Positions 19,972 through 32,856 of a stretch of 64,000 nucleotides of DNA are shown here, piece by piece. Numbering within the stretch: the first letter of the stretch is position 1; each line of letters opens with the position of its first letter. The notes under the pieces were generated by a model. The model was not told the origin of the DNA, did no database searches, and saw only the letters and a program-made list of their open reading frames with translations. The position numbers and the translations under genes were made by a program. Origin of the DNA: Anaerolineae bacterium (GTDB lineage: Bacteria; Chloroflexota; Anaerolineae; Aggregatilineales; Aggregatilineaceae); NCBI GenBank assembly GCA_018432315.1, contig JAHDLB010000004.1, forward strand, positions 1 to 64,000, read 5' to 3'.

Positions 19972-20409
19972 CTAGCGGGCCTGCTGGCGCTGGCAGGCCG
20001 GGCAGATCCCGGAGATCTCCAGCCAGTGGCCGGTGATCGTGTAGCCGGTCGTTTCGGCGACGCGATCCAGGAAGTGGCCCAGGTCGCACCCGACGATCTC
20101 CACGACGTCGTGACAGCGCTCGCAGACGACGTGATGCGTGTGGCCGGGCGTCGCCAGGGCGTACCCGTGACAGCCATCGGCCACGTGCACCGCGCGCAGC
20201 ACGCCCATCGTCTCCATCAGCTCCAGCGTGCGGTAGACGGTCACCAGCCCCAGGTCGCCGTACAGCTTCTGGCCGCGCTCCTGGATTTCGGCGGGCGAGA
20301 GCGGCTTGGGCGTCGCCAGCAGCGTGCGCAGGATCGCGCGGCGCGGCTGTGTGAGCTTGTGTCCCTGGGCGCGGAACTGCTGGGCCAGGGTTTCGAACGA
20401 GGTCGTCAT
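19972..20409 (-). CDS. Fur-family metal-responsive repressor (Fur/Zur type)
   Basis: 145 aa. Winged helix with LTQPRRAILRTLL and the recognition region GLVTVYRTLELMETMGVL, then the metal-binding dimerisation part with HTHHVVCERCHDVVEI and a C-terminal CPAC, giving two CxxC pairs for structural zinc. Co-transcription with a metal ABC importer whose ATPase has a His tail makes zinc sensing (Zur) most likely, but Fur or Mur cannot be excluded. The start at 20409 is used because the frame upstream runs through the promoter and operator. It is the first gene of its operon and probably autoregulated. Confidence 0.92.
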   Translation of the reverse strand: MTTSFETLAQQFRAQGHKLTQPRRAILRTLLATPKPLSPAEIQERGQKLYGDLGLVTVYRTLELMETMGVLRAVHVADGCHGYALATPGHTHHVVCERCHDVVEIVGCDLGHFLDRVAETTGYTITGHWLEISGICPACQRQQAR

Positions 20410-24425: not shown

Positions 24426-24929
24426 TCAGCTCTCGCGCGCGCTGCTGTTGGCGGGTTCCAGCCGGAACTCTTGTTTGTATCCAAACCGCCGCGCGTTGTC
24501 CAACCAGCGAATCCAGCGGGGACGCAACACGTAGATCACGCTCTGATCCATCAACGGCTCGAACCGCTCGTTGACGAACGGGAACTTGGCCCGGTACAGT
24601 GCCAGGGCGTGTTGGCGCTCGTCGTCATTATCAGTGACCGCCCACACGTCGCCTTCGATCTGCACGCCTTTGATCCCGGTCCATTCCCAGGTATGAGCGT
24701 AAATCGCCGCCGCCACGTCGTTCCAATCCGCGACGTTGCGGCTGTGGCGGCTGTCGGGGCTGGAAATCCAGTAGATGTTGAAGTCGTCGTCGCTGGCGAA
24801 AAAGAGCGGCGCGACCTGGGGGCGCCCATCCCGTTCCCCGGCAGTTGCCAGCGCCATCGTCGACTGCCCGTTCAGGAAATCCCGCAGCACCGGGCGCATG
24901 TCGTCAGGCAGCAGGGGAAGCTCGTTCAT
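24426..24929 (-). CDS. Pyridoxamine 5'-phosphate oxidase-fold flavoprotein
   Basis: 167 aa. Split beta-barrel (PPOX) fold: MALATAGERDGRPQVAPLFFASDDDFNIYWISSPDSRHSRNV fits the strand order and the FMN/F420-binding loop of this superfamily, and IQIEGDVWAVTD-like strands follow. The reaction is unknown; members oxidise or reduce small molecules or bind flavin, F420 or haem. ATG 24929 overlaps the UbiX stop (ATGA), which decides the start over ATG 24956. It is the last gene of the menaquinone-type cluster. Confidence 0.85.
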   Translation of the reverse strand: MNELPLLPDDMRPVLRDFLNGQSTMALATAGERDGRPQVAPLFFASDDDFNIYWISSPDSRHSRNVADWNDVAAAIYAHTWEWTGIKGVQIEGDVWAVTDNDDERQHALALYRAKFPFVNERFEPLMDQSVIYVLRPRWIRWLDNARRFGYKQEFRLEPANSSARES

Positions 24930-25516
24930 GGCGTTCTGCCTCTCAATCCCAGCCATTCGAAATACAGATCGTTGGCGATGCCCAGGCGCAGCAGCACCCG
25001 GCCCACGATCCCATTTATCATATCATCGACTGACTGCGGATGGCTATAAAACGCGGGCATCGGCGGCAGGATCACGGCGCCGATCTCGGCGGCCTGGACC
25101 ATCAGGCGCAGGTGCCCCAGGTGCAGCGGCGACTCGCGCACGACCAGCACCAGCGGGCGCCCTTCTTTGAGCTGGACGTCGGCGGCGCGGGTCAGCAGCT
25201 CGTCGGCGTAGCTGTGCGCGATCGCCGACAGGCTCTTGATGCTGCACGGCACCACGACCATGCCCATCGTCTGGAACGAGCCGCTGGCGATGCTCGCGCC
25301 GATGTTGCCCGCCTTGTGGACCTCACTCGCCAGCGCTTCCACATCGCTGATCTTCCAATCCGTTTCCTGCGCGATGGTGATCTTGGCCGCGTCGGTCAGG
25401 ATCAGGTGCGTTTCGATCGAATCGTCCTGCCGGAGCGCTTCCAGCAAGCGGATTCCCAAAATGGCGCCGCTGGCGCCGGAAATGCCCACGATCAGGCGGT
25501 TGGGGTCAGGTGGCAT
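24926..25516 (-). CDS. ubiX: Flavin prenyltransferase UbiX (MqnM-like)
   Basis: 196 aa. UbiX joins dimethylallyl phosphate to FMN to make prenylated FMN, the cofactor of UbiD decarboxylases. The N-terminal VGISGASGAILGIRLLEAL motif binds FMN; VVPCSIKSLSAIAHSYADELLTRAADV and LVLVVRESPLHLGHLRLM are the conserved UbiX blocks. Length is normal. It lies in the same minus-strand cluster as a UbiD homologue, its obligate partner, although seven genes separate them. In the futalosine menaquinone route the equivalents are called MqnM and MqnL. Confidence 0.95.
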   Translation of the reverse strand: MPPDPNRLIVGISGASGAILGIRLLEALRQDDSIETHLILTDAAKITIAQETDWKISDVEALASEVHKAGNIGASIASGSFQTMGMVVVPCSIKSLSAIAHSYADELLTRAADVQLKEGRPLVLVVRESPLHLGHLRLMVQAAEIGAVILPPMPAFYSHPQSVDDMINGIVGRVLLRLGIANDLYFEWLGLRGRTP

Positions 25517-25544: not shown

Positions 25545-25757
25545 TTAGTGATCGATGCCGATCATCACGTTCGAAGCCTTGATCACGGCGTAGGCGTCTT
25601 TGCCCACGGCCAGCCCCAGGCTCTCGGCGGACTCCTTGGTGATCACCGACACGATCTCGGTGCCACCCGGCAGCGCGATGACGACCTCGGTGTTCACTGC
25701 ACCGGGCGTGATCTGCTTGACCGTGCCTTTGAGCGTGTTGCGTGCGCTGAGTTTCAT
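25545..25757 (-). CDS. Molbindin (single Mop/TOBE domain)
   Basis: 70 aa, one Mop domain: MKLSARNTLKGTVKQITPGAVNTEVVIAL, then VITKESAESLGLAVGKDAYAVIKASNVMIG. Such proteins form hexamers that bind molybdate or tungstate and buffer it in the cytoplasm. AAGGAG nine bases upstream selects ATG 25757 over a longer frame. No molybdate ABC genes are close, so its place in a quinone cluster is unexplained. A TATATT -10-like sequence lies at 25798-25803 without a convincing -35. Confidence 0.92.
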   Translation of the reverse strand: MKLSARNTLKGTVKQITPGAVNTEVVIALPGGTEIVSVITKESAESLGLAVGKDAYAVIKASNVMIGIDH

Positions 25758-25829: not shown

Positions 25830-26531
25830 TTAGGGCGGCCTGGTGCCCCAGTGAACGGCCATCGTGCCCAGCATGAAGCGCCGGTAGCCGACCTCGACCA
25901 GCCCGGCGGCGCGCATCAGCCCGGCGAGCTCCTCGGCGGTTTTGAAGCCGAGCGTGCTCTCCGGCAGGTAGCGGTACGCGTCCGCCTGCCCGCTGATGAT
26001 CCGGCCCAGCGCGGGGATCACGAACTTCAGATGAAACTGGATGAACGGGCGCAGCGGGCCGCGCGGGGGCGGAGTCGTGTCCAGCGTGACCAGCCGCCCG
26101 CCGGGCCGCAGCACGCGAACCTGCTCGGCCAGCGCGCCGGGGATGTCGGTCACGTTGCGGAACAGGTAGCCGCTGGTCACGGCATCGAAGGCGGCGGTGG
26201 CATACGGCAGGTGCAGCGTATCGGCGGCCTGCCACGCGATCGCATGCGCGCCGCTGCGCTGCTGGCCGACGCGCATCATCGGCAGGGCGAAATCCGCCGC
26301 CACGACGTGCAGGTCGGGCACCTGCCGCCGGGCCTCGAAGGCGATGTCGCCGGTGCCGGTGGCGATGTCGAGCAGCCACCCGCCGCGCGGCAGGGCCGCC
26401 TGCCAGACGACGAAGCGCCGCCAGCGCCTGTCCTGCCCGAAGGTCATCAGGCGGTTCATCAGGTTGTAGCGCCGCGCGATGCGCCCAAACATATCCTGCA
26501 CGTAGGCGGCGTGATCGGTGGTGGCGTTCAT
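25830..26531 (-). CDS. ubiE: UbiE/MenG-type quinone C-methyltransferase
   Basis: 233 aa. SAM-dependent methyltransferase for the last step of menaquinone (demethylmenaquinone) or ubiquinone synthesis. N-terminal VQDMFGRIARRYNLMNRLMTFGQDRRWRR is the UbiE signature, LLDIATGTGDIAFEA the SAM-binding motif I, and GYLFRNVTD (usual G[FL]RNV) the family motif. An anaerobic or Gram-positive-like quinone profile would make menaquinone the product, but the sequence alone does not prove it. It sits between MsrB and the molbindin in the cluster. Confidence 0.93.
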   Translation of the reverse strand: MNATTDHAAYVQDMFGRIARRYNLMNRLMTFGQDRRWRRFVVWQAALPRGGWLLDIATGTGDIAFEARRQVPDLHVVAADFALPMMRVGQQRSGAHAIAWQAADTLHLPYATAAFDAVTSGYLFRNVTDIPGALAEQVRVLRPGGRLVTLDTTPPPRGPLRPFIQFHLKFVIPALGRIISGQADAYRYLPESTLGFKTAEELAGLMRAAGLVEVGYRRFMLGTMAVHWGTRPP

Positions 26532-26579: not shown

Positions 26580-26987
26580 CTACTCTCCGGTGGCGGGCTT
26601 CAGTTCCAGCGCCACCGAGTTGATGCAGTAGCGCTGGCCGGTCTTGTCGCGCGGGCCATCGTCGAAGAGGTGGCCCAGGTGCCCGCCGCACCGGCTGCAC
26701 ACGACCTCGGTCCGGTTCATGCCGTGGCTGTAGTCCGGCTTCAGCTCGACGCTGCCCTCCTGGATGACGTCCCAGAAGCTCGGCCAGCCGCTGCCCGAAT
26801 CGAACTTGGTGTCGGACGAAAACAGCGCCTGCCCGCAGGCCGCGCAGTGGTAGGTGCCCTGGGTCTTTTCGTGAACGTACTCGCCGGTGAATGGGCGCTC
26901 GGTGGCCGCTTTGCGCAGCACGGCATACTGTTCGGACGTCAATTCTTCGCGCCATTCCGCGTCGGTCTTCTGGATTTTGTCGGTCAT
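26580..26987 (-). CDS. msrB: Peptide methionine (R)-S-oxide reductase
   Basis: 135 aa. Repairs oxidised methionine. Zinc site CAAC and CSRC, the substrate loop SGSGWPSFW and the catalytic Cys in RYCINSVALEL are all conserved, with the family's HLGHLFDDGP segment. CAGGAG nine bases upstream supports the start. Cytoplasmic, as there is no signal peptide. It is embedded between the ABC permease and ubiE with gaps of about 50-70 bases. Confidence 0.97.
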   Translation of the reverse strand: MTDKIQKTDAEWREELTSEQYAVLRKAATERPFTGEYVHEKTQGTYHCAACGQALFSSDTKFDSGSGWPSFWDVIQEGSVELKPDYSHGMNRTEVVCSRCGGHLGHLFDDGPRDKTGQRYCINSVALELKPATGE

Positions 26988-27053: not shown

Positions 27054-27932
27054 CTAGTCAAGCTCCCCGGCGCGGCGCCAACGCCCGACGATCCGCTCCA
27101 GCACGTCGACCACCATGTACAGCAGCAAGCCGAGCAGGCTCATCGCCAGGATGCCGGCGTACATCTGGTCGAAGCGCAGCCGCTGCCATGTCAGCGTGAC
27201 GATATAATACCCCAATCCCTCGCGCGTGCTGTACTGCTCCGCGATGAACAGGACGGCGATGGCCGTGCCCACCGACACCCGCAGCGCCGTCAGCACGGCG
27301 GGCAGCGAGGCGGGCAGGTACACGTAGCGAAACAGCGCGCGCCGTCCCGCGCCCAGCGACCGCACCGACTGGATCAGTTCCGGGCGCAGGCTGGCCGCCT
27401 CGTCGCGCACCACCACCAGGATCTGGAAGAATAGGATCAGCGCGATCAGGAAAACCTTCGACGTTTCGCCGATGCCCATGATCACCAGGATCACCGGCAG
27501 GAACACGACCTTGGGGATCGGGTGGACCAGCCCGATCAGCGGCGAGAAAATGCGGTTGAGCACACGAATCTGGCCCAGGCCCATGCCGATCGGCGTGGCG
27601 AACAGCACGGCCACGGCGATCGCTTGCAGCACGCGCCCGGCGCTGATGACCGTGTGATCCCACAGGTCGCCCTCGCGCATCTCCTCGACGAAGACCGGCA
27701 GCACCTCCCACGGATAGGGCATGATGTCGCGGTCCAGGTAGGCCGCCAGCGCGATCCAGCACGCGACGAAGATCGCCAGCGCCAGCGCCAGATTGCCCAG
27801 CCGGGCGAGCGTCGTTTTCGCGGCCCGTTTCGCCGTGGCCGTGTCGCCCTCCCACACCGCCGGCGGGGCGGACAGGGGCCGCGCTTCGGCGGCGCGGGCG
27901 GCGTCGGTGAAGGGAGTCGCTTTGTCGTTCAT
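27054..27932 (-). CDS. ABC transporter permease, NitT/TauT (SsuC) type
   Basis: 292 aa, six membrane helices after a 45-residue hydrophilic N-terminus. The EAA loop is SVRSLGAGRRALFRYVYLPASLP. Members import nitrate, sulfonates, taurine, thiamine precursors or similar. It starts inside the stop of the ATPase gene (ATGA at 27929-27932), so the two are co-translated. Its binding protein is the unusual cytochrome c fusion encoded two genes upstream. Confidence 0.92.
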   Translation of the reverse strand: MNDKATPFTDAARAAEARPLSAPPAVWEGDTATAKRAAKTTLARLGNLALALAIFVACWIALAAYLDRDIMPYPWEVLPVFVEEMREGDLWDHTVISAGRVLQAIAVAVLFATPIGMGLGQIRVLNRIFSPLIGLVHPIPKVVFLPVILVIMGIGETSKVFLIALILFFQILVVVRDEAASLRPELIQSVRSLGAGRRALFRYVYLPASLPAVLTALRVSVGTAIAVLFIAEQYSTREGLGYYIVTLTWQRLRFDQMYAGILAMSLLGLLLYMVVDVLERIVGRWRRAGELD

Positions 27933-28747
27933 GCCTTCAGCCCCAAAAGCTCGCGCAGCTCGTTACACCTGTCGAGAAAGGCCGGCGTGCTGCGGTAGCC
28001 AGGCACGCCCGCGCCCGGATTCGACACGATCACCGGCTCGGTGTTGGGCGGCTGGCCCAGCACCAGGATGTGCCGCCCCAGGATCGCGGCCTCCTCGATG
28101 GCGTGCGTGACGATGACGCTGGTCAGGTCCATCTCGCGCTGGAGCTGGATGACCAGGTTTTGCAGGTCTTCGCGGGTGGGCGCGTCCAGGCTGCTGAACG
28201 GCTCGTCCATCAGCAGCAGGTCCGGCTGGAGCGCCAGCGTGCGGGCGATGGCGGTGCGCTGGCGCTGGCCGCCGCTGATCGCGCCGGGGTACTTGTTGCG
28301 CTGGTCGGCGATGTTCAGCCGCCGCAGCCACTGCTCGACCATGCGCCGCGCTTCCTGGCGCGACGGGGGCGGGGCGGTGCGCGGCGCGTGAGTGCCGTCC
28401 GGCCCGTATAAGCGACGCACGCGCAGCCCCAGCGCGACGTTGTCCCACACCGTCGCCCAGGGCAGCAGGCCGTAATCCTGCAGGATCAGCCCCGTCTCCG
28501 GGCGCGGGCGGCGGATCACGGTGTCGCCCACGCGGATCGTCCCGCTGGTGGCGCGGCGCAGCCCGGCGATCAGCGTCAGCAGCGTCGTCTTGCCGCAGCC
28601 CGACGCGCCGATGATCGACCACGTTTCGCCCGGCGCGACCTGCCAGTTGAAGCGGTCGAATACCGGGGTGCTGCGCGGCCCGTAGCGGAAGGTCAGATCG
28701 GTGATGGCGATCATGGCCTGGGTGTTGGTGGCGCTCATGTGAACCAT
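27929..28747 (-). CDS. ABC transporter ATP-binding protein, NitT/TauT (SsuB) type
   Basis: 272 aa. Walker A GASGCGKTT, Q-loop LILQDYGLLPWATVWDNVALGL, signature ISGGQRQR, Walker B LLLMDEPFSSLD and H-loop VTHAIEEA, all intact and typical of the SsuB/TauB group. An insertion (RRLYGPDGTHAPRTAPPPSRQ) lengthens the helical domain. The start is uncertain between ATG 28747 and ATG 28738; neither has a strong ribosome site. It energises the permease that overlaps its 3' end. Confidence 0.92.
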   Translation of the reverse strand: MVHMSATNTQAMIAITDLTFRYGPRSTPVFDRFNWQVAPGETWSIIGASGCGKTTLLTLIAGLRRATSGTIRVGDTVIRRPRPETGLILQDYGLLPWATVWDNVALGLRVRRLYGPDGTHAPRTAPPPSRQEARRMVEQWLRRLNIADQRNKYPGAISGGQRQRTAIARTLALQPDLLLMDEPFSSLDAPTREDLQNLVIQLQREMDLTSVIVTHAIEEAAILGRHILVLGQPPNTEPVIVSNPGAGVPGYRSTPAFLDRCNELRELLGLKA

Positions 28748-28809: not shown

Positions 28810-30078
28810 CTATTCCAGCGTCAGCAGGTAGGCGACCAGGTCGTTCAGGTCGCTCTCGGACAGGTCCGTGTAGGCGGGCATGACGCCATCGGGAAAGCCC
28901 TCGGCCACGACCGCGCCCGGCTCCACGATGGATTCGTGCAGGAATGCCGCCACATCGACGTCCTCGTACTCCTCGGCGACTTCCTCGGCGATGCCCTGCA
29001 TTGTCGGCCCGGTGGCCTGCGCTCCGTCCAGCGAGTGGCAGCCGATGCAGCCCAGGTTGACGAACAGCGTTTCGCCGTTGGCCGGGTCGCCAGCCGCCGC
29101 TTCGGCGGGCGCGATGGCGTCCAGGAAGGCCGGGTTCACGCTGCTCTCATAGCTGGGCGCCTCGTCGATGATGCCCTGCTCGACCAGCCAGGCCATCGTG
29201 TCGTCCCAGGCCAGCGGCTGCGTGATGGCGTAGGTCGGGAACGGCGGCAGCTCGTACGAATCGCGCACGCTGTCCGGCACGTTCGTGTTCTCGATCCACA
29301 GGTCGCGGTAAGCCTCCGGGTCGGCGTTCACGTCCTCGGCGGCGCGCATCCACGCCCGCAGGAAGGCTTCGACCGCCTCGGGGTTGTCCTCGACGATCTC
29401 GGTGCGGAAGCTGAGCACGCTCTGGCTGAATTCGCTCTCGACCAGCGACGAGTCATCCGCGATCAGGATCGCGCCACCCTCGATCGCCGCCTGGGCCAGC
29501 GGGTCCGGCAGGCAGACGGCCTTCATCGTGCCTTCCATCAGCAGTTGGAAGCGCACCGGGATGTTCGGCTCGGCGATCCAGCTCAGCTCGCCGGCGCTCA
29601 CGCCGTTTTCTTCCAGGATGCGCTGGGCGATGTAGTGGATCACCGAGTTCTCGCTGATCCCGATCTCGACATTCTTCAGGTCGTTGGGGATGGTGATGTT
29701 GCTGCGCGGCGCGGCCAGGATGCGAAACTGTGGCGCGTCTTCGTAGGCGCGGCGGGCCATCGCCACGATCTGGATGCGGGCCTCGTCCTGGTTGAAGATG
29801 CCCGTGCTGATCAGGTCGTTGAGCATGCCGTCGATCTCGCCCGCCAGCAGCAGTTGATCGCGTTCCAGCGCGCTGCTGACCGGCACCAGCTCGATCTCCA
29901 GACCTTCGTCGGCGAAGTAGCCCGCCTGATCGGCCACGTAGAACGGCAGCACGTCCAGGATCGGCAGCAGCCCCATTTTGAGCTTCGTCTGCGCCTGGGC
30001 GCCCGGCTGGCCCAGCGGCAGCAGCGCCGCCGCGACCAGAGTCAACGCGAGCATGAGGGAAAACAGGTTTTTGCGCAT
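28810..30078 (-). CDS. NMT1/SsuA-like substrate-binding protein fused to a c-type cytochrome domain
   Basis: 422 aa. Signal peptide 1-29 (ending AQAQ). Residues about 30-310 are a type 2 periplasmic-binding fold of the NMT1/SsuA/TauA kind (KMGLLPILDVLPFYVADQAGYFADEGLEIELV, then IGISENSVIHYIAQRIL). From about 330 to 422 a class I cytochrome c domain follows, with haem motif CIGCH at 344-348 and a MPAYTDLSESDLNDLVAYLL tail giving Met400 as sixth ligand. Both domains are complete and in one frame. It is followed by its ATPase and permease genes and preceded by ubiA and ubiD. The substrate is unknown. Export is required for haem attachment, consistent with the signal peptide. Confidence 0.9.
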   Translation of the reverse strand: MRKNLFSLMLALTLVAAALLPLGQPGAQAQTKLKMGLLPILDVLPFYVADQAGYFADEGLEIELVPVSSALERDQLLLAGEIDGMLNDLISTGIFNQDEARIQIVAMARRAYEDAPQFRILAAPRSNITIPNDLKNVEIGISENSVIHYIAQRILEENGVSAGELSWIAEPNIPVRFQLLMEGTMKAVCLPDPLAQAAIEGGAILIADDSSLVESEFSQSVLSFRTEIVEDNPEAVEAFLRAWMRAAEDVNADPEAYRDLWIENTNVPDSVRDSYELPPFPTYAITQPLAWDDTMAWLVEQGIIDEAPSYESSVNPAFLDAIAPAEAAAGDPANGETLFVNLGCIGCHSLDGAQATGPTMQGIAEEVAEEYEDVDVAAFLHESIVEPGAVVAEGFPDGVMPAYTDLSESDLNDLVAYLLTLE

Positions 30079-30109: not shown

Positions 30110-31039
<930 letters not shown>

Positions 31040-31041
31040 GC

Positions 31042-32856
31042 CTATACCCCGACCTGCGGCCACTTCTCGTCCACGCGGCGCCGGACGTCCTCGCTCATGG
31101 CGATCTCGACCGGCCAGCCGCGCGGGTGCCCATCGTCGGCGGTCTTGGTCGTGGCGTCGATCCCGATCTGCCCGCGCGGGCCATCGTCCCCGGCGAAGTG
31201 ATCGATCGGGCCGCCCCGGATGGCGATGTCGCGCCGCCAGTCGACGTTCCCCAGCGCCCGCCACGCCGCGTCGGATACGTTCTGCACGTCAACGAAGCTG
31301 TCCAGCGCTACAATATTCACCCCCGGCGCGGCGTCCCAGATCGCGTCGAAGACCTCGCGGACCGGGCGCTGCGCCTTGTCCACCGCCACCAGCACCACGC
31401 CCGCGCGCGGGCTGTGCCAACCCTCGCCCACCGCCGCCGTGATCGCCTCGGCGGGCAGGGGCGCGATCTCGACCGGGGCGCGGTCGGGCTTGCGCGTGGC
31501 GTCAACGCCGATCTTGCCGCCATACGAGTCGCGGATCGCGGCATGGTCGAGCTGGTCCACCGGGCCATCGACGATCGTCACGTCGCGCCGCCAGTCCACG
31601 TTGTTCAGCACGGCGGCGGCCACGGCGTCCAGGTCGTGGACGTTCACATCGGCGTCGACCACGACGAAGCCTTTGCTCAGCATCATCAGGCCCAGGCCCC
31701 ACAGCCCGTACATGACCTTCTGCGCGTGGCCGGGAAAGCGCGGCTTGAGGCCCACGATCACCAGGTTGTGAAAGACGCCCTCGGCGGGCATGTTGACGTC
31801 GGCGATCTCGCCCTGGAACAACTGCATCAGCGGCAGGAACAGGCGCTCGGTGGCCTTGCCCATCCAGTAATCTTCCATCGGCGGCTTGCCGACCACCGTC
31901 GTCGGGTAGATCGCGCCGCGCTTGTGGGTGATCGCCGTCACGTGGAAGACGGGGAACAGGTCCGGCGGCGTGTAGAAGCCGGTGTGGTCGCCAAACGGCC
32001 CTTCCATGCGGTGCTCGTTGGGATCGACGTAGCCCTCGATCACGATCTCGGCGTTGGCCGGGGCCTCGATGTCCTGCGTGATGCATTTGACGAACGGCAC
32101 CGGCTGGCCGCGCAGCCAGCCCGCCAGCAGGTACTCGTCGATGTTGGGCGGCAGCGGCGCGGACCCACACCACATCTGCGCCGGGTCGCCGCCCAGCGCA
32201 ATCGCGCACGGGATGCGGTCCTTCTGGACGGCGCGCGCCTCGCGCTCGTGTTCGGCGCCGCCCTTGTGACGCTGCCAGTGCATGCCCAGCGTGCGGCTGT
32301 CGTATTTCTGCAGGCGATACATGCCCACGTTGCGCGCGCCGGTGACCGGGTCGCGGGTGATGACCTGCGGCAGCGTGATGTACGGGCCGCCGTCCTCCGG
32401 CCAGCAGGTGGGGATCGGCAGCAGGTCCAGCGAGGGATCGTCGGTGATGATCACCTCCTGGCAGGGCGCTTTGCCCTGGCGGACGCGCTTCGGCCCCAGG
32501 CCGATGCTCCGCAGCGCGCCGAGGAAGTCCATCCCCCGCCCGGCCATGGCGCGCGGGCCCTGCGGCAGCCGGGGATCGATCAGCCGGCCCAGGTCGCGGC
32601 GCAGGTCTTCGAGATCGTCCACACCCAGCGCCAGCGCCATCCGCCGCGCCGAGCCGTAGGCGTTGATCAGCACCGGCATGGCCGAGCCTTCAACGTTTTC
32701 GAACAGCAGCGCCTTGTTCTGCGCGGCAGGCCCTTTGCTCACCCGGTCGGTGATCTCGGTGATTTCCAGGTGCGGGCTGACGGGCGTGGTGATGCGCACC
32801 AGCTCGCCTTCTGCTTCGAGCCGGTCGATGAACGCGCGCAGGTCGGCATAGGCCAT
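31042..32856 (-). CDS. ubiD: UbiD-family decarboxylase (MqnL-like)
   Basis: 604 aa, long for UbiD (about 480-500). Removes the carboxyl group from a prenylated aromatic acid using prenylated FMN from UbiX. The family core is clear: LFENVEGSAMPVLINAYGS, LPIPTCWPEDGGPYITLPQVIT, and the active-site Glu in HRMEGPFGDHTGFY. The C-terminal part contains two similar copies of an NVDWRRD...GGPxD...G(K/Q)IG(V/I)DAT block, so the last 100 or so residues look duplicated. AGGAG seven bases upstream fixes the start. First gene of the cluster, behind a promoter and palindrome. Confidence 0.93.
   Translation of the reverse strand: MAYADLRAFIDRLEAEGELVRITTPVSPHLEITEITDRVSKGPAAQNKALLFENVEGSAMPVLINAYGSARRMALALGVDDLEDLRRDLGRLIDPRLPQGPRAMAGRGMDFLGALRSIGLGPKRVRQGKAPCQEVIITDDPSLDLLPIPTCWPEDGGPYITLPQVITRDPVTGARNVGMYRLQKYDSRTLGMHWQRHKGGAEHEREARAVQKDRIPCAIALGGDPAQMWCGSAPLPPNIDEYLLAGWLRGQPVPFVKCITQDIEAPANAEIVIEGYVDPNEHRMEGPFGDHTGFYTPPDLFPVFHVTAITHKRGAIYPTTVVGKPPMEDYWMGKATERLFLPLMQLFQGEIADVNMPAEGVFHNLVIVGLKPRFPGHAQKVMYGLWGLGLMMLSKGFVVVDADVNVHDLDAVAAAVLNNVDWRRDVTIVDGPVDQLDHAAIRDSYGGKIGVDATRKPDRAPVEIAPLPAEAITAAVGEGWHSPRAGVVLVAVDKAQRPVREVFDAIWDAAPGVNIVALDSFVDVQNVSDAAWRALGNVDWRRDIAIRGGPIDHFAGDDGPRGQIGIDATTKTADDGHPRGWPVEIAMSEDVRRRVDEKWPQVGV

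Follow-up and report, generated by a model that had tools for sequence, protein, structure and literature searches.

A stretch of 64,000 nucleotides from the genome of an Anaerolineae bacterium (assembly GCA_018432315.1, contig JAHDLB010000004.1, positions 1 to 64,000; from here on the window) contains a gene for a substrate-binding protein (SBP) that is fused to a c-type cytochrome and is followed by the ATPase and permease genes of an ATP-binding cassette (ABC) importer. Judged by its parts, the system appears to be a NitT/TauT-type importer that genomic context and distribution tie to the salvage of a menaquinone precursor, and that has a lineage-specific haem domain. The fusion protein and its segments are encoded as follows:

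28810..30078, minus strand: SBP-cytochrome c fusion of 422 amino acids (NMT1 and Cytochrom_C over their Pfam cut-offs; fusion conserved in relatives)
29989..30078, minus strand: Sec-type signal peptide, residues 1-30, without lipobox (cleavage site judged by eye; lipobox scan)
29311..29952, minus strand: NMT1/SsuA-type binding domain, residues 43-256 (Pfam NMT1, E 3.9e-20)
28816..29082, minus strand: class I cytochrome c domain, residues 333-421 (Cytochrom_C PF00034, E 2.7e-11)
29035..29049, minus strand: CIGCH haem-binding motif, residues 344-348 (from the sequence)
28879..28881, minus strand: Met400, predicted as the sixth ligand of the haem (all 14 fusion sequences of the window's own family have a Met at offset 54-57)

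An earlier note, made from the letters of this DNA, had described one uninterrupted frame that joins the two domains, with the haem motif and Met400 at these positions; all of this is confirmed, and the strand, which the note did not give, is minus. Met400 lies 56 residues beyond Cys344, and with both the CXXCH motif and the distal Met inside the PF00034 match, the C-terminal part has the sequence hallmarks of a class I cytochrome c. The SBP part is also over the cut-offs of the Pfam families PF09084 and PF13379. An AlphaFold2 model of the fused protein has a mean per-residue confidence (pLDDT) of 91.5 and a predicted template modelling score (pTM) of 0.77, and its residues 27-337 share the SBP fold of PDB entries, in a comparison that mainly covers the SBP part: the fold is that of TauA, SsuA, NrtA/CmpA and PqqT and, more distantly, of MqnD and MqnA. 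Among solved structures, the haem domain matches 1w2l best (E 4.8e-11), an entry named cytochrome oxidase subunit II. The possibility that an assembly frameshift has joined two genes can be dismissed, as it is refuted by independent genomes: in the window's own family (f1; 18 genomes, G000-G017, with the contigs of G003, G011 and G012 carrying only the 3' part of the fusion) a search for the architecture found the two domains in one frame in 14 of the 18 genomes, and the pair of frames split by a stop, which the note had named as the alternative, was not found in these relatives.

The gene of the fusion is part of a run of genes on one strand, in the order ubiD, ubiA, fusion, ATPase, permease, msrB, ubiE, TOBE, ubiX and PPOX-like, with intergenic gaps between -31 and +72 nucleotides:

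31042..32856, minus strand: UbiD-type decarboxylase of menaquinone synthesis (TIGR03701, 609.8 bits, cut-off 495.9)
30110..31033, minus strand: UbiA-type prenyltransferase, MqnP-like (PF01040; TIGR01475 over cut-off)
27929..28747, minus strand: ABC ATPase (PF00005, E 2.3e-31)
27054..27932, minus strand: ABC permease, 4-nucleotide overlap with the ATPase gene (PF00528, BPD_transp_1, E 1.7e-17)
26580..26987, minus strand: MsrB methionine sulfoxide reductase (TIGR00357 over cut-off)
25830..26531, minus strand: UbiE/MenG methyltransferase (TIGR01934 over cut-off)
25545..25757, minus strand: small stand-alone TOBE-domain protein (PF03459, E 7.7e-21)
24926..25516, minus strand: UbiX flavin prenyltransferase (NF004685 and TIGR00421 over cut-off)
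24426..24956, minus strand: pyridoxamine-phosphate-oxidase-like (PPOX-like) protein (PF01243; adjoins UbiX in six f1 relatives too)

ATPase and permease follow the fusion directly, as the earlier note had stated, with spacings of +62 and -4 nucleotides. Its interpretation holds for the architecture and for the placement in a NitT/TauT-type operon, but it overlooked that this operon is embedded in genes of menaquinone biosynthesis: by its gene content, the locus is a cluster of late menaquinone genes, in the middle of which lie those of an importer. For the UbiA-type protein, the best model is MqnP (NF041586, 318.7 bits, cut-off 430). Methyl-plastoquinone instead of menaquinone was considered as the product and rejected: UbiE reaches only 166 bits with the MpqE model (cut-off 335). 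Two further genes of the cluster recur in relatives. The msrB gene, placed between permease and ubiE, also adjoins the permease in G002 and G011 (L056, L059), and a link of MsrB to methionine repair is speculation. A TOBE match occupies the same place between ubiE and ubiX in G001, G002, G012 and G014 (found with a query that read the gene out of frame).

The genome that contains the window is 99.4% complete, and the tested early genes of both menaquinone pathways are absent from it (MqnB, MenF, MenC and MenE were not searched). Of the futalosine pathway it has the late UbiD-type decarboxylase (TIGR03701); there is no match to PF02621 (MqnA/MqnD), which is also missing from all 34 genomes searched, and no match to TIGR03700 (MqnE/MqnC). 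Of the classical Men pathway, MenD and MenA have no match, and MenB is represented by paralogues only (best 151 bits, cut-off 342.7). Each of these searches gave matches in well-known control genomes.

This pattern extends across the class. In a draw of 396 genomes (thresholds E <= 1e-30 for SBP and MenD and E <= 1e-80 for UbiD), the SBP is found in 103, PF02621 in 45 and MenD in 107, and the SBP and the early genes come close to mutual exclusion: of the 103 SBP genomes, 3 have PF02621 or MenD, versus 139 of the 293 others (Fisher p 1.6e-19, shared ancestry ignored). The alternation is seen inside nine families, and overlaps are confined to two of these. Of 105 genomes with the menaquinone-type UbiD, the SBP occurs in 67 and PF02621 in 30, with no genome having both and eight having neither (six of originally 111 genomes, G129, G224, G226, G236, G275 and G315, were dropped, as their sole match is a weak paralogue). 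Where UbiD is missing, there is a switch to MenA, which is over its cut-off in 31 of 36 SBP genomes without UbiD versus 5 of the 30 tested genomes with UbiD (Fisher p 1.2e-8, shared ancestry ignored), in a subset of 70 genomes that was hand-picked, not random. The count of 36 leaves out G021, G022, G026 and G042, three of which have MenA and for which UbiD was not tested genome-wide. Five SBP genomes have neither UbiD nor MenA (G103, G123, G230, G319 and G340), and four of them are 82-87% complete. For MqnE, a likewise hand-picked subset of 55 genomes was used: TIGR03700 found nothing beyond marginal matches (three at E 2e-4 to 9e-4) in 46 SBP-bearing genomes and is over cut-off in 8 of 10 PF02621-bearing ones, with G401 counted among both lots; the eight positives have further frames below the cut-off, which were taken for MqnC. 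In family f45, PF02621 proteins (often two) occur together with MenD in 10 genomes; because G283 and G401 lack MqnE, these proteins may not be enzymes of the pathway, and they were kept in the counts.

The SBP is also physically linked to quinone genes in many relatives. Within f1, UbiD and UbiA directly precede it in nine other genomes (G001, G002, G007, G008, G009, G010, G013, G014 and G017), and the window, G001, G002, G007, G009 and G014 share the complete run ubiD-ubiA-SBP-ATPase-permease-ubiE-ubiX. UbiD-UbiA-SBP-ATPase is seen in the inspected genomes of f30, f38, f41 and f46; the permease was found in G116, G166, G244 and G093 (where a contig end cuts it), and was not found in G082, G186 and G266. 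In f3 and f4 the order is SBP-ATPase-permease-UbiE. A profile search with the SBP in 156 genomes of the phylum gave 17 matches, 10 of them outside the class; in the nine of these ten loci that were inspected, the ATPase always adjoins the SBP (9/9), UbiE lies behind the permease in five, and UbiX is found on the other side in two. Two out-of-class loci, L167 and L168, have UbiD-UbiA-SBP-ATPase-permease-UbiE, at 37-53% identity. MenA stands beside the transporter in L065, L092 and L172-L175, with the MenA family confirmed for L065 and L174; the stretch of L092 given to this check was a wrong frame and had no match. Counting distances of up to 8 kb, the SBP is near UbiD in 34 of 67 genomes and near MenA in 14 of 36; the MenA count omits G022, G026 and G042, and in G026 and G042 MenA adjoins the SBP. 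Two tandem arrangements were seen: G046 has a run of about seven SBP copies followed by ATPase and permease, with MenA adjoining (L097, 6948-14408), and G009 has two tandem SBP genes inside its menaquinone cluster (L058, 9230-11235).

That this linkage recurs in distant relatives speaks against the view that an ordinary NitT/TauT importer, for instance for a sulfonate, nitrate, the thiamine pyrimidine or riboflavin, has come to lie in the cluster by chance. Such an origin is very improbable, even if the SBP sequence does match the SsuA, THI5 and NMT1 families: with the SsuA_fam model TIGR01728 it reaches 83.4 bits, well below the cut-off of 163.5, and no Rfam riboswitch was found at gathering score between positions 20000 and 36000 of the window. 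There are no thiamine or riboflavin genes among the nine cluster proteins scanned.

We propose, with a probability of roughly 0.65, that the ABC operon serves to salvage a menaquinone precursor, most likely a dihydroxynaphthoate, by import. The main argument is that the SBP accompanies either of two late routes that share dihydroxynaphthoate as their input, and that it is nearly absent where this input can be made. The ligand would be 1,4-dihydroxy-6-naphthoate, or 1,4-dihydroxy-2-naphthoate (DHNA) where MenA is present. The hosts would be bacteria in which a late set of enzymes, either UbiA/UbiD/UbiX/UbiE or MenA/UbiE, is retained and none of the genes tested from the two known early pathways is present. 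The binding protein, once exported, would capture the precursor, permease and ATPase would carry it into the cell, and the adjoining prenyltransferase, decarboxylase and methyltransferase would convert it to menaquinone. Precedent for DHNA salvage elsewhere supports precursor import: Porphyromonas pasteri, which misses five menaquinone genes and retains the final two, can be rescued by DHNA (PMC9704088). Quinones act as growth factors, and a 2017 paper on quinone cross-feeding states that no transporter of menaquinone or its precursor DHNA had been described (PMC5738691).

Several observations weigh against precursor import. The assignment of the ligand is, at its core, guilt by association. 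SBP and early genes do occur together in G263 and G425 (MenD) and in G401 (PF02621, but without MqnE). In 33 of the 67 SBP-UbiD pairs and in 22 of the 36 SBP-MenA pairs, the two genes do not lie within 8 kb of each other, mostly because they are on separate contigs, and the partners stand apart within one contig in the single-contig genomes G070 and G297 and also in G348 and G195. Even within f1 the cluster is not uniform: G004, G015 and G016 have no UbiA or UbiD upstream (3.9-4.8 kb inspected), G003, G013 and G017 no UbiE beyond the permease (2.0-3.8 kb inspected), and G006 and G010 no ATPase beyond the fusion (1.0-1.8 kb inspected). Finally, stretches of 14-19 kb around the SBP contain no relative of the ATPase or permease in G021, G070, G261, G297 and G348. 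In family f23 (G297, G075), the SBP adjoins a polyprenyl synthetase gene and not the ATPase and permease (L100, 8464-10484; L184, 7237-9247), an arrangement that still fits quinone synthesis (the prenyl chain) and does not fit a compact importer operon.

The SBPs without ATPase and permease nearby would also fit a rival reading, in which the naphthoate comes from a route not yet described, with the SBP-type protein being part of this route, or the ABC system imports another compound needed for menaquinone, or menaquinone itself. The absence of the known genes does not equal the absence of synthesis, other proteins of the SBP fold are enzymes (MqnA, MqnD and THI5), and 154 of the 396 class genomes have neither the SBP nor MqnA/MqnD nor MenD. 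However, the SBP has a signal peptide or a lipobox and should act outside the cell, and its pairing with MenA or UbiD, with dihydroxynaphthoate as the common input, and its near-absence where this input is makeable are not readily explained in this way. We consider such a route unlikely; because SBPs without ATPase and permease exist, we raised our estimate for it and lowered the one for precursor import to the value given above.

The haem domain has a much narrower distribution than the SBP. Four of the 18 f1 genomes (G002, G007, G008 and G009) carry the SBP without CXXCH, and they have no separate cytochrome gene nearby either: the stretches from G002, G007 and G008 contain no CXXCH frame of more than 70 residues, and the only one in G009 lies about 8.8 kb away on the opposite strand and looks spurious. 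Outside f1, a CXXCH domain was seen in one of 37 inspected genomes (G022, family f6), with four of the 37 having no intact C-terminal end shown. The domain of G022 differs from that of the window: it is a better match to Cytochrome_CBB3, its Met is at offset 44 instead of 54-57 and it is 32% identical over 76 aligned columns. In an SBP tree of 36 sequences with 10 open forks, G022 stands apart from f1 and four label changes are needed; the fusion of a cytochrome to the SBP probably arose more than once, because well-supported branches force at least two of these changes. In the genome of the window itself, PF00034 matches 19 stretches, and cytochrome modules of the same type form part of exported proteins that otherwise differ, among them COX2 and a WD40 protein (L002, L003, L004, L006, L007); by sequence, the module is promiscuous in this genome. 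We infer that the haem domain is a later, lineage-specific addition to the SBP.

What the haem contributes is less certain. Haem attachment is predicted from the motif, and because the haem ligands are retained in all 14 f1 fusion sequences, the haem probably matters in these proteins, though close relatives do without. It may, tentatively, link the respiratory chain by one-electron contact to the binding protein and perhaps to its hydroquinone/quinone ligand. Electron passing to or from the ligand had been one idea of the earlier note, and the menaquinone cluster makes it more plausible, because it suggests a redox-active dihydroxynaphthoate as ligand. For the note's other ideas, redox sensing and gated uptake, nothing turned up that speaks for or against them. 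Met-ligated cytochromes c usually have a high potential. For this reason, and because the ligand would be a hydroquinone, any electron flow would go from the ligand to the haem. On the other side of the scale, haem-free SBPs are the rule, and this genome has the same type of module on exported proteins of unrelated kinds.

About as likely as redox contact is a role in which the cytochrome domain only docks or retains a binding protein without its former lipid anchor near respiratory complexes of the membrane, with no chemistry on the ligand. The distribution of the lipobox fits this: 29 of the 37 SBPs outside f1 show the pattern (G020 and G027 were counted as lacking one, while longer frames of both show one), compared with none of the 15 f1 members whose N-terminus is present, and relatives free of a lipobox carry a cytochrome c (most of f1; G022) or, in G054, a fasciclin domain at the place of the cytochrome (PF02469, E 5.4e-29; L031, 1480-2844). 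That the same type of cytochrome sits on the WD40 protein, on COX2 and on other exported proteins of this genome is in line with docking, too. A pure tether, however, would have no need for the haem motif and the Met that all 14 f1 fusions retain, and a replacement anchor is not required, because both lipobox and CXXCH are absent from four f1 members and from G046; in the two of these that were scanned with Pfam, G007 and G046, no extra domain was found.

A more specific version of the redox idea, which we regard as doubtful, is that the binding protein doubles as a dihydroxynaphthoate:cytochrome oxidoreductase: electrons of the hydroquinone bound in the cleft would pass to the fused haem and on to a terminal oxidase, and the carrier would set the redox form that is given to the permease and would couple vitamin K2 salvage to respiration. 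If so, the repeated origin of the fusion would be convergence for a reason. No SBP-cytochrome fusion turned up in literature searches, which reached few subscription papers.

If precursor import is correct, the gene set is a candidate transporter for DHNA or another menaquinone precursor with strong genomic support, and it could offer an explanation of how menaquinone is possible without a known early pathway in about one quarter of the class sample (103 of 396 genomes). It would also predict that the hosts depend on their neighbours, and would suggest a growth supplement. In its haem-bearing form, such an importer would have a carrier protein capable of electron exchange. Literature searches, again reaching few subscription papers, yielded neither a DHNA or menaquinone transporter nor a menaquinone auxotrophy in this phylum.

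Among known systems, the NitT/TauT importers (SsuABC, TauABC, NrtABCD) are alike in having an NMT1/SsuA-type binding domain, a permease and an ATPase, and the folds of TauA, SsuA and NrtA match that of the window SBP with Z scores of 26-28; the window SBP differs in being below the curated cut-offs for SsuA and TauA, in its position in a menaquinone cluster and in bearing a cytochrome c. PqqT, an SBP that binds pyrroloquinoline quinone (PQQ), shares the fold as well (Z 26, 279 aligned residues) and has been solved with this quinone cofactor bound, so that a quinone ligand has precedent in the fold; identity to the window SBP is 15-16%, haem domain and menaquinone context are found only in the window protein, and the ligand of the latter is putative. 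MqnA and MqnD of the futalosine pathway, cytosolic enzymes of which MqnD releases 1,4-dihydroxy-6-naphthoate, are similar in general fold (MqnD 2czl, Z 21.9; MqnA 6o9a, Z 17.6), whereas the window protein has a signal peptide, no PF02621 match at E <= 0.001 and a permease and ATPase encoded with it. DHNA salvage is a known trait of Porphyromonas pasteri and of gut bacteria, and P. pasteri likewise combines late genes only with an external precursor (PMC9704088). The closest counterparts of the haem domain are the cytochrome c fusions of caa3 oxidase subunit II, which have the same type of module (1w2l; the COX2 of the window's genome bears one), but in the window the module sits on a binding protein of a transporter.
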